Source of the DNA: Malus domestica
Taxonomy: Eukaryota > Streptophyta > Magnoliopsida > Rosales > Rosaceae
DNA: 64,000 nt
Direction of reading: 5' to 3'
Assembly (NCBI RefSeq): GCF_042453785.1
Contig: NC_091668.1
Span: 503,501 to 567,500 of the forward strand
Shown in pieces: positions 30,472 through 35,931 of the stretch; the stretch's first letter is position 1, and each line of letters begins with the position of its first letter. The notes under the pieces were generated by a model. It saw only the letters and a list, made by a program, of their open reading frames with translations, was not told the origin of the DNA and searched no databases. Both the position numbers and the translations under genes were made by a program.

Positions 30472-32879
30472 GTTAAATCTACACACACCCAAAATATAAC
30501 CTGATAAGCTTCTGTTGAAAGAGAAATATGTAACAAGGACAAGAACGCACACGTCCTGCCCATGCCTCTTTCATTTTGAGAAAAGTACACTAAATAAAGT
30601 ACTTATAAATGTAGCATAGTCAAGAGATACAAAGAATCTATTACTCCAGTTGCGTCTACCAAAAGTTGGTAGCTTTCGAGTCCCTATGAATTATATTGCT
30701 TTGGTGAAAGTAGTTTGTTTATACCATATTTAGGGTCTCGTATTTAGATCTCGTACAAATACTCGGGGGACTTAAATGTAATTATGTGATAAAGGAATGG
30801 GCAAATATGTAATAAGTGATGAGTCCTTATTCTATAAAATGACCCTTCACCTTCACAATTGGGAGAGGCCAATTCCTAAGGCTCCTCATCCCCTCTCAAA
30901 GCTCTCACTCTCAAAGCTCCCTCTCCCTCAAATAAATACATAATCAGCGTGGACGTAGCCCAAACCTTGGGGTGAACCACGATACATCTTGTGTTATTTA
31001 CATTATGTGCAGATTCACGGTCGGATTTACGTTGTTCCAAGACCTTCAGTTTTGTGCATCAACATTTGGTGCCGTTTGTGGGAATCGATACGAAAAACTA
31101 TGTCAATTCTCTTTCATTTTTTCACCTCCACCGTGAATCTGAAAAATCTGCAAAAAAACCCTGACCAAAGCTCACCTCTTGTCTTTCTTTCTCTCTAACG
31201 AACACTTTCTTTCCCTGAGTAATTTCGTCGAGCACTTGGGGTGCAATACTGTGGAACCCATGAAGGCCAATAAGGCAACCGTCTTAACATTTGCCAAGAA
31301 ATGCAAGAGTATATTGTCTTCCAATTGGCAAGGGCAACTCAATACCATCAATGTTGATGCTAAAGGAAGCAAGGATGACATATACAGATCAAAGGTTAAG
31401 TACATCTGCAAAAGAGGGAAGCTATACCTTTGGGTGCCCGAAAATGAGTTGCATAATGTGGAAAAAGACACAAACCCAGGCAAGTACAGGCTCAACCCCA
31501 CTTTCATTTCACACCCAATTCTAATTATCCTTCTCCACACATGGAACACGTGTCACAACAATAGCAGCAATCAGCAGAAGGGCGACTTGGACGCCATCCA
31601 AGAGCTCCTCGACTCCTGCACCAATGTCGATTTCACTGACATCAACGGCTGCACCGCCCTCCACGTCGCCGCTTACTAGGGCCAAACCGACGTTGTCCAG
31701 CTCTTGCTCCAAAGAGGCGCCGAGGTCAACCTGCGTGACTGTTGGGGCAGCACGCCTCTTGCAGATGCAGTTTATTACAAAAACGATGATGTGATCATAC
31801 TTTTAGAAGATTATGGTGCTAAACCTTCGATGGCTTCAATAAGCCATCAGTCGAAGCTCCTCAAGAGCACCCCAAGAGCCTCTTCTGAATGAGAATGAGT
31901 TTCTAGTGTGTTGATTGAAGATTCGAAATTCGTTCCTCTAAATGCAGATGAAATGATATTTGGTCCACCTGCTTTGTTATTGTTGGGGTTTTAAGTGGAG
32001 GAAGCTGAGAAGATCTAACAGTTTTTCGAAACAGCTAGACGGAGAATTCCTCAAGTGCAAAGGAAGTCATTAAAGGCAAGGAGATGGGTTGATCGCATCT
32101 CCCCAGCAGCCCCATCTTCCTTCCACCGCCAAATCTGACCTCGCCATACCTCTCATCGCCTCCGACGTCACCCTCTACAATCCCTCCGACCTCGCCACCT
32201 GGGTCGACCCCCCTCCTCACCGAGTTCAACCACCAGCCCCTCATCTCCACCAACTGAACCTCGAAACATGGTGGTCCCTCAAACCCCGAAATATGGTCAA
32301 TCAACATTTGTGCGTCAGCTATTGCATTTCTCCAGACAGCTTTCTCCAGATCTTACAGATTTTACAGATGGAGTACACCAGCTAGTGTTTAGATGCAGTG
32401 GAAAGAAAAAAGCAAAAAGAAGAGAGCACATGGAGTTTGGAGCAATTGGAGACGGGACCCAAGGTGATGAAGGGGACTCTGCCGACAGAAAAATCAGAGA
32501 AGAGAGCACATGGCGGACAACGCAAAAGAAAAAGAGAAAGTAAAGCAGAAAAGGAAAAGAGAAAAGAAGAAAAGGGGCAAAATTATAAAGTTCCTATTAT
32601 TACGATTCCTTTTGTCTACCAGGTGAAGAGATAGAGAGAGTACGACGAAAAGCAGAAAGTAAAAGCAGAAAGCAAAAGTAAGGAATAAACACCCCACCAG
32701 AATGATGTAATTTATTTTTATTATCTTTCGGAGACATCTGTATAAACCCCATCAGAGGGTAATATGTATAAACTCCATCAGAGGGTAATAATAATAATAA
32801 AATTAAAAAAAATTAAAAAAAAAGGGCAAAGCCCAAAACAAATGGGCTGGCATGTTGTGGAGGGCAAATGCCCATAAGC

Positions 32880-33540
32880 CCGAAATAGCACCAACCAGGT
32901 CATCAAAAGTACGCCCAGTACTCCACAATTATTCGGCAACCTGCCGCTAATAGCAGCAACTAGGTGATCAAAAGTACACCCAGTACTCCAAAATTATTCG
33001 GCAACCCGCCGCTATTACCACCAACCAGGTGATGAAATGCATAACCCGTACTCTAATATCATTTGGCAACTAGCCATTCATGCCACCAACCAAGTGATGA
33101 AATGTACAACCCGTACTCTAATATCATTTGGTAACTAGCCATTCATGCCACCAACCAGGTGATGAAATGTACAACTCGTACTCTCCTTCATGCCACCAAC
33201 CAAGTGATCAAAAGTACGCCAGTACTCCAAATTATACATGAGCATTACTCATGTCATTCATACATAAGCATTCATGAACATCACTCATGACAATCATACA
33301 TAAACATTCATGACCATCATTCATGTCAACATTCATGAGCATCACTCATGTTAACATTCATGAGCATCACTCATGTTAACATTTATGAGCATCACTTATG
33401 TCAATCAGCTTCAAAAACTTCATTTACAGAGCTCTAGCTTCAAAAGCTTCATTTACAAAAGCTCTAGCTTCGAAAGCTTCATTTACAGAGTTCTAGCTTC
33501 AAAAGCTTCACTTGCAAAGCTTCACCTACAAAGCTTCAGT
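32880..33540. repeat. Tandem repeats inside the LTR element
   Basis: About five units of roughly 65-70 bp (caccaaccaggtgatcaaaagtacgcc...) run from 32890 to 33230. They are followed by short units 'catgagcatcactcatgttaa' to about 33400 and then 'agcttcaaaagcttcattta' units to 33540. They make up most of the 3' interior of the element at 30716-34713. Confidence 0.75.
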
Positions 33541-33699
33541 GCAGGGTATGCAAATACCACCTCCGAACAACCGCCACTTCAGCCCATACATGGATTCAAT
33601 TTAAAGTCTCCAGCCAACAGACTCTATTAACCGAAGACTTGGGATGCTACATTATGTACCATTTATTGGGCCTCAACTGGGCCTCATGAAAAATACTTG

Positions 33700-34160
33700 G
33701 GGGACTTAGCCCATTATTTATGTATTAAGGAGCAAGTCTTTATTCTATAAAAGGGACTCCCTCACTTTCATTAGAGAGCACCCATTATTCATGTACTAAG
33801 GAGCGAGCCTTTATTTTATAAAAGGGACTCCCTCACCTTCATTAGAGAGCATCGCCGCCTACTGAGCAACCGCCTCGCCGCGAGCATCAACTCTAGCCCG
33901 TATTTATGTATTGAGGAGCGAGCCCTTATTCTATAAAAGGGACTCCCTCACCTTCATTAGAGAGCATCGCCGCCAGCTGAGTAACCGTCTGGCCACGAGC
34001 ATCACTCTTAACCCATTATTCATGTACTGAGGAGCGAGCCCTTATTTTATAAAATGAACTCCCTCACCTTCATTAGAGAGCATCAACTTTAGCCCATCAT
34101 TCATGTATTGAGGAGCGAACCCTTATTCTATAAAAGGGACTCCCTCACCTTCAACGCCAC
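33700..34160 (+). repeat. Tandem LTR-like promoter modules inside the LTR element
   Basis: Five copies of about 100 bp, each containing 'ttattctataaaagggactccc' or a close variant and 'tcaccttcattagagagcat', follow one another. The sequence resembles the TATA region of the flanking LTR (ccttattctataaaaggacccctcacc). The block looks like amplified LTR pieces. Confidence 0.75.
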
Positions 34161-35931
34161 AGGCCAAGCCAACCAAAGCAACATAAGCCACGAGCCGAGC
34201 AGCTCGCAGCATGTGCTACTTCTAGTTGAGCATCATTTCAGATTGAACACCGCCTCATATCGAACATCAGTTCAAGACAACATCTAGTTACTTCGGCCTA
34301 CACATGGACTGAATTTCAAGTCTCCAGCCAAAAGACTCTCTTGACTGAAGACTTGGGGAACTACTGTTTATACCATATTTAAGGCCTCGTATTTAGATCT
34401 CGTACAAATACTCGGGGGACTTAAATGTAATTATGTGATAAAGGAATGAGCGAATATGTAATAAGTGAGGATTCCTTATTCTATAAAAGGACCCCTCACC
34501 CTCACAATTGGGAGAGGCCAATTCCTAAGGCTCCTCACCCCCTCTCAAAACTCTCACTCTCAAAGCTCTCTCTCCCTCAAATAAATATATAATCAGTGTG
34601 GACGTAGCCCAAACATTGGAGTGAACCATGATACATCTTGTGTTATTTATATTACGTGCAGATTCACGGTCGGATTTACGTTATTCCAAGACCTCCAGTT
34701 TTGTGCATCAACATAGTTCATTCCCCTGGAAACATCAATTGCGACTCTGAGCAAGGACAGAAGTGATAACACACCCCTTTGGTTATGCAGAAAGTCATAT
34801 ATACTTCCCCCCACCAGACAGAAATTCTGAGAACGAAAAAGAAAATATAAAAATTTTGAATTGAACCGAAAACCATGTGTGGGCATAAACAAAAGTATAA
34901 ATACATAAATTACAATAGCTTACACCCTACACATGTCTTCATTGAGAAATATCAAAGTTAATTAGACGATTCAGAATTTCAAATATGAAGATAAACAATA
35001 ATCACCTTACATATGTAAGAAGATTCGGAACTGTAAGTGAATCACATCACATACTTGCAAAACTAAGAAACGTTTAACGTGTTACCCATAGTTTACATCA
35101 TTCGATTGAAAACCACATTCGATTGATTGACATTGCAGAACATCAATTTTAAACATATATTAAAAAGGGGAAAACAAATCCACCTCACTGAGGAGTTTGG
35201 GCTTGTCATTCGTGGAAATAGTAATTTCATGCATCGACCAGTAAAATTTGAAGTATAGCAACGTTAATTATATAAGAACAATGCAAAACTATAGCAATCA
35301 AATTATTTGCTGGAACTCCTTCCTGTCAAATATCTTCTCAGACACAACAAAGTCATACGAGACATTCCTATATATATATAGAAATGATAGGTATAAAAGG
35401 CAGTATAGATCATACTGCAAAAAGGAGAAGTATCTTCTTTCGTGTACTTCATTGTGTGAAAATGATGACAATCATAAAGAACGTATTTCAACCTACTTAC
35501 CTTGTAAACAGTTGACTGGCATACACGGAGTTATCTGTAACCTGTCAGCTTCAAGAGCAAGTTCAAGGTCTGGTGACAAACCAAAAGCTGGCGGTGGATG
35601 ACTGAAACATAAGAAATAACGTGCCATATGAGAGATGTAAAGATCAATGTTTGCAATAGAGAAAGCCAACTCCAAATAAATATTCATATAGCCGTGCCTC
35701 TCTTTGTTGGCAGCAGCAGAACATTGACATTCGCTTTCCTCGATGAATTTGAACCGGAAGCATAACAAACCTGCATAAAAGATTGGCTAAGCAAATAACT
35801 TCCTATGCCAATAATTCCTTGTCCAAGACGAACTTGGACTGCGGGTCTAGTGGCAGGGTCATGTGCCACATGCAGTAATCTCTTATGCATCAGAACATCT
35901 TGTGCCCTCTCAAGCGAAGGAGTGTACTAAT

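Follow-up and report, generated by a model that had tools for sequence, protein, structure and literature searches.

We analysed 64,000 nucleotides of apple (Malus domestica) DNA (contig NC_091668.1; C8:503501-567500 in our numbering), hereafter the window, which contains an element with long terminal repeats (LTRs) at 30716-34713. The interior of this element holds joined pieces from at least five host loci, namely A from C7, B from C17, C from C1, D from C4 and E from C15. Positions are those of the window, and donor searches were made within the window's own genome (651 Mb in 19 contigs). The features of the element, with the basis for each, are as follows.

30711-30715, plus strand: target-site duplication TAGTT, left copy (flank reading)
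30716-31064, plus strand: 5' LTR (repeat search)
31065-31154, plus strand: family-wide leader, with the primer site at 31067-31082 inside (pattern match, element comparison)
31155-31464, plus strand: piece A, 5' untranslated region (UTR) and first three exons of the C7 locus at 27570267-27571126 (genome match)
31465-31507, plus strand: 43-nt filler, also in a second copy, L048 (alignment)
31508-31840, plus strand: piece B, 5'UTR and exons of an ankyrin-repeat kinase locus on C17 (genome match)
31841-32055, plus strand: piece C, four exon blocks of a C1 locus with DUF3783 encoded downstream (genome match)
32054-32139, plus strand: piece D, 86 bp of a C4 locus, also matching C9 (genome match)
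32156-32247, plus strand: piece E, N-terminal part of a DELLA gene on C15, with further matches on C2, C14 and C7 (genome match, Pfam)
32248-32690, plus strand: older stretch common to other family members, purine-rich near its end (element comparison)
32821-33210, plus strand: 65-bp direct repeats within the family-conserved 3' part (repeat search)
33715-34201, plus strand: direct repeats spaced 71-116 bp, partly like the LTR stretch 30805-30855 (repeat search)
34365-34713, plus strand: 3' LTR (repeat search)
34714-34718, plus strand: target-site duplication TAGTT, right copy (flank reading)

The two LTRs are 349 bp each, direct, bounded by TGTTTA...TCAACA and 94% identical, with 17 transitions and 4 transversions between them (Kimura two-parameter distance, K2P, 0.063). 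The hallmarks of an LTR retrotransposon, paired direct LTRs with TG..CA termini and a 5-bp target duplication, are all present. Two bases 3' of the 5' LTR, at 31067-31082, lies the primer-site pattern TGGTGCCGTTTGTGGG; 0.45 chance occurrences per window are expected at 2 mismatches, and the observed match has none and stands at the primer-site position. The stretch GAAGACTTGGGGAACTAC, which is weakly purine-rich, precedes the 3' LTR, where a polypurine tract would stand. When 14 interior open reading frames (ORFs) were scanned against Pfam, no family of gag, protease, reverse transcriptase or integrase was matched; only ankyrin families exceeded the cut-off, with DELLA narrowly below it. Being without gag-pol, the element is not an autonomous Ty3/gypsy element. 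Terminal inverted repeats, a Pack-MULE trait, were not found, the terminal repeats being direct and the inverted pairs internal and short. The repeats at 33715-34201 resemble the TATA-containing part of the LTR (30805-30855), like an array of promoter cores, and are also matched in other members of the family.

Pieces A, B and C matched three separate multi-exon loci, with best-block E-values of 3e-46, 2e-67 and 1e-24, respectively. A (31155-31464) aligned to C7 in three blocks of 91-95% identity, and B (31508-31829) to C17 in three blocks of 92-93%, its next 11 nt (to 31840) being the start of the donor's following exon with one difference. C (31841-32055) aligned to C1 in four blocks of 93-96%, its left end falling within a donor exon. 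D matched C4 over 86 bp at 92% and C9 at 89%; no gene was recognised for it. E (32156-32247), whose start may lie at about 32137, is 90% like a stretch of C15 that reads SDAVLYNPADLATWVDSLLTEFNHQPLIS in the donor frame, which by its motif is probably a DELLA N-terminus; its Pfam DELLA match (E = 8e-5, 23.0 bits) is just short of the 23.8-bit cut-off. A is weakly CREG-like (Pfam E = 0.002, below the cut-off). Pieces A, B, C and E are in sense orientation within the element; A begins 107 nt and B 33 nt upstream of the donor ATG, and C and E begin within coding sequence. The listed genome matches fall on C1-C17; for many donor loci, a partner chromosome carries another match (C5/C10, C3/C11, C9/C17, C13/C16, C1/C7). 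A sixth candidate donor, for F (32315-32421), was rejected; we treat F as older family sequence, because its match at C11:40467440-40467800 also contains the adjoining family-shared block.

The original prediction, made without database searches, holds to the base for the LTRs, the 5-bp duplication and the gypsy-like primer site, and its reading of a missing polymerase and captured host genes is supported: no polymerase was found in the 14 ORFs scanned, and A, B and C align exon by exon to host loci with the introns gone. Its three donors are real and understate the number, D and E having been missed. The piece of uncertain identity that it placed at 31204-31490 is likewise real and corresponds to A, with different bounds and with three exons of the C7 locus as its source. 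The proposed ankyrin-repeat kinase, whose place in the ILK group is putative, was borne out by the B donor, where both ankyrin repeats (Ank_2, E = 2e-19) and a kinase segment (E = 7e-9) are encoded. The DUF3783-like assignment named the right locus and the wrong part of it: the DUF3783 match on C1 (E = 3e-8) is encoded 3' of the exons that were captured, and the piece C sequence gave no Pfam match of its own.

The same chimera occurs a second time, on C15 (L048; C15:24869487-24873477, minus strand), with an identical order of A to E and with the filler included. The captured stretches of the two copies are 91% alike, and a single alignment of 30712-33538 gives 88%. The flanks of L048 are unlike those of the window element, its target duplication has one mismatch, and its LTR pair has a K2P of 0.062. 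We compared both copies with the donors over 870 aligned sites (first and third block of A, and B, C and D): 19 differences are shared, 35 are found only in the window element, 34 only in L048, and at 3 sites all differ. Since the copies share 19 donor differences, capture preceded their split. The original prediction had called for a search for other copies with the same pieces, and would have given up capture had the pieces been common to a whole LTR family or matched no host gene; L048 is such a copy, host loci were matched, and A to D, far from being family-wide, are joined only in these two elements among the matches listed. E is present in six sampled elements (window, L048 and L052-L055), and L056 shares the sequence from 32236 onward; E is older in the family than A to D. 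Substitutions at codon positions 1/2/3, counted over A and B only and excluding C, were 13/10/11 in the window element and 13/7/8 in L048; A and B thus appear to decay neutrally, with no sign of selection.

The LTR of the window element is common in the genome, with 3689 first-look candidates in a genome-wide search, of which 40 were scored; about 40 candidates at most were scored in any genome search, and further matches can escape. In 14 elements, the LTR, leader and 3' part matched nearly all others and the middle matched few or none, the constant leader reaching about 85-115 nt past the LTR (14 elements aligned, by eye). We then compared 27 middles, from these 14 elements and 13 partial ones chosen by LTR or shared 3' sequence and not by cassette, and found 24 kinds between the same leader and 3' part. 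One is shared by the window element and L048 and one by L053, L054 and L055; the other 22 are private, within the 27-element sample, in most of their 5' part, although L040 and L043 have a short first piece in common. Both bounds were seen in 16 of these 22; in L037, L041, L042, L044, L045 and L066 the stretch contains no leader, so that the left bound is unseen and flanking DNA is possible. Three elements with LTR and 3' part only (L003, L005, L008) were excluded from the comparison. Middles vary from about 1.1 to 4.3 kb by member. No gag-pol was recognised by eye in ORFs of at least 85 aa in chosen stretches of L055, L056, L061 and L064. Target duplications are identical in eight of the ten elements having both LTRs, the others being L048 and L064 (unmatched), and LTR-pair K2P ranges across the ten from 0.002 (L052) to 0.077 (L065). 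The value for L052 indicates that at least one family member moved recently.

Eight of the 27 cassettes (window, L060, L063, L065, L052, L067, L040 and L062) were searched genome-wide. All eight have at least three donor loci, and six show clear intron loss, that is, blocks adjoining in the element and apart in the genome. In L060, separate loci were matched by 28-272, 281-668, 672-1049, 1062-1309 and 1385-1462, and two blocks meet at 1266, on C11 and likewise on C3; some cassette blocks, such as L060 281-668, may be repeats instead of genes. For L063, C11 and C3 each gave three blocks, C5 and C10 two each and C16 two, and C1 was matched as well. The donors of L065 lie on C16/C13, C10, C12 and C6, and those of L052 on C5 and on C10 (two blocks each, one of 74%), C6/C14, C13 and C6 (two blocks). 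L067 has two blocks each on C17, C7 and C1, and further matches on C15, C8 and C16; L040 matched three places on C15, two of them on C8 too, and C11; and L062 matched four blocks on each of C13 and C16, plus C3/C11. Among 20 ORFs picked by eye from the middles, ten had no Pfam match at E 0.01; ubiquitin, thaumatin, protein kinase, DEAD, MFS_5 and WAPL scored above the cut-off, and Bax1-I, SOR_SNZ and the HIR1 propeller below it, with a weak V-ATPase match on an antisense ORF. All 118 ORFs of at least 60 aa on both strands of the 13 partial middles, excluding the last 120 nt of each, gave nine Pfam families at E <= 0.001, one ORF each, where about 0.1 would be expected by chance (TRAP_beta, Pkinase, MORF, 2OG-FeII_Oxy, SOR_SNZ, TIP49, oleosin, DUF3700 and RING). 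No retrotransposon family was matched in either ORF set.

We consider it highly probable that these elements form a non-autonomous family, mobilised in trans, which has repeatedly copied host messenger RNAs (mRNAs) into one fixed interval. A single rare capture like that of maize Bs1, spread by copying through an otherwise ordinary family, would account for the second copy of the window cassette, for E in six sampled elements, and for the additional whole or partial copies of several other cassettes (L063 in full on C17, 89%; L065 at length on C8, 1-996 of 1290, and in part on C10; L062 1-516 on C1 and C16; L067 1726-2250 on C11). However, the 27 sampled elements have middles of 24 kinds, and each of the eight tested drew on several donor loci, which makes such a one-off origin improbable.

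The joints point to how the pieces were acquired. Block edges inside A and C coincide with donor exon edges bearing GT and AG, and B has lost introns at 31754 and 31829, both at GT..AG exon edges of its donor. Because introns are absent exactly at these edges, A, B and C were copied from spliced mRNA; D and E span no intron and so carry no information on splicing. The third block edge of B is not a splice: 105 bp are skipped, AGGGC (31579-31583) lies at both ends, and the donor reading frame runs open across the jump, as a reverse transcriptase changing position on its template would leave it. Read by eye, the shared bases number about 7 at leader/A, 5 inside B, 2 at C/D, 3 at D/E and 0-1 at B/C; the 2-7 shared bases at most joints are what template switching would leave. 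Processed pseudogenes, made by machinery of the long interspersed nuclear element (LINE) type and inserted into the element as DNA one by one, would be equally free of introns. Yet A to E abut with at most a 43-nt filler between them, and neither a poly(A) run nor a target duplication for individual pieces was seen at the joints read, where no dedicated scan was made. Processed pseudogenes commonly lack their 5' end, whereas A and B each reach from the 5'UTR to a point within the gene, and we regard this origin as very unlikely. Capture of genomic DNA by ectopic recombination or gap repair has hardly any claim left, for although end joining also leaves short shared bases, A, B and C lack introns at exact exon edges and only D and E are compatible with it.

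Serial copying of host mRNAs into a fixed interval could proceed as follows; trans mobilisation, co-packaging and minus-strand switching are inferred, the first two from what is generally known of LTR elements. The non-autonomous family retains LTRs, a primer site, about 90 nt of leader and a 3' part some 1.7 kb long. An element would be moved in trans, its RNA being packaged alongside host mRNAs. During minus-strand synthesis, reverse transcriptase would quit the element RNA for spliced mRNAs in turn, jumping between them at short shared bases and then returning to the leader. Synthesis to the 5' end of an mRNA followed by a jump would give the starts of A and B upstream of the ATG. The product would be a new element with a chimeric cassette, inherited by later copies; cassettes could gain further pieces, E being older than A to D, and would decay neutrally.

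Several observations weigh against this account. No autonomous partner of the family was found. No source was found for the 43-nt filler, which is in the donor locus of neither A (downstream part) nor B, or for 32248-32690. Five joints are insufficient to prove an excess of shared bases. Splice sites were read for the window donors only, intron loss in the other five elements being taken from match coordinates, and it is not clear in L065, whose best donor is unbroken, or in L040. One L060 piece may be antisense (its ORF is on the opposite strand), which plain minus-strand switching would not yield. In L052 the LTRs are near-identical and the donor blocks are mostly 85-96% alike, with one at 74%; as its LTRs are far more alike than its donors, a cassette can long predate the insertion that carries it.

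Some further features of the family were observed. The middles of L056, L061 and L064 have in common a stretch of 1.3-2 kb found in no other sampled element, in which no long ORF was recognised by eye. L053 and L054, about 37 kb apart on C3, are near-duplicates, each having a truncated 5' LTR next to a partial LTR in inverted orientation; they may stem from a single rearranged insertion that was duplicated along with the DNA around it. In ten of 14 leaders, judged by eye, an ATG (ATGTCGGTTCTC-like) is kept about 35 nt past the LTR and is perhaps the remnant of a gag start. Elsewhere in the window, near its edge, a Retrotrans_gag ORF (61986-62897, E = 2e-14) comes from a different LTR element; it was rejected as a partner and assigned to another family because the family LTR, leader and 3' part have no further match in the window (E 1e-8). 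The window also contains a MIR171 precursor at 39990-40123 (Rfam RF00643; 72.9 bits on the plus and 52.3 bits on the minus strand), a tRNA-Pro with anticodon TGG on the minus strand at 3832-3903, two similar minus-strand ORFs at 20310-21701 (463 aa) and 25270-26658 (462 aa), putative MscS-like channels, and a 360-aa ORF at 57140-58222, a putative sterol methyltransferase.

Plant LTR elements are known to capture genes, both from maize Bs1 and from surveys in maize, rice, sorghum and pepper (PMC13317346, PMC2774510, PMC3726574, PMC5664825). Bs1 carries pieces of three host genes, for an H+-ATPase, a xylan endohydrolase and a beta-1,3-glucanase (PMC13317346). The window element likewise holds pieces of several host genes within LTRs, A, B and C having been captured as spliced RNA; unlike Bs1, it draws on at least five loci, and other sampled members carry different sets. 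In B73 maize, 425 intact LTR elements with gene fragments represent at least 189 independent captures, and the authors found none that combined fragments of two or more standard nuclear genes under the conditions they used (PMC2774510), in contrast to the several loci in eight of eight members tested here. NLR and other genes have been retroduplicated within LTR elements in pepper, tomato, potato and rice, also from spliced mRNA with intron loss and mostly without gag-pol (about 72% of NLRs); those elements differ in holding copies of genes, of which many belong to a single NLR subgroup and are under purifying selection (PMC5664825), whereas the apple family has short joined pieces from unrelated loci, neutral where tested (A and B). 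Full-length LTR elements contain 672 captured genes in rice and 1,343 in sorghum, and the available portion of that survey describes no family with variable multi-gene cassettes (PMC3726574). Large retrotransposon derivatives (LARDs) are also non-autonomous, with LTRs and without gag-pol, but have a conserved non-coding interior, usually >4 kb (PMC4668562), and the apple family, with a middle of about 1.1-4.3 kb that differs by member, does not belong with them. Pack-MULE and other Pack-TYPE elements resemble it in being non-autonomous with many different captured gene pieces; Pack-MULEs have inverted repeats and genomic DNA, the apple family direct LTRs and intron-free pieces. Literature outside most subscription journals (including PMC5659011), in its accessible parts, yielded no description of an entire family made up of chimeras like these, nor of comparable capture in apple or pear.

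We lean towards regarding the family as a counterpart of Pack-MULEs at the RNA level, in which packaging, together with a fixed interval for switching that lies between leader and 3' part, would have led to serial replacement of the coding region by chimeras of spliced mRNAs, nearly every lineage being a different product of multi-gene exon shuffling. Small RNAs from the pieces, themselves putative, might act against the donors (DELLA, the kinase and others). If different joined mRNA pieces have indeed accumulated at one fixed site, the family is a natural archive of template switching; a single genome would then reveal switch points, donor choice, timing and the stepwise growth of cassettes, and the frequency of exon shuffling by LTR elements would become countable.

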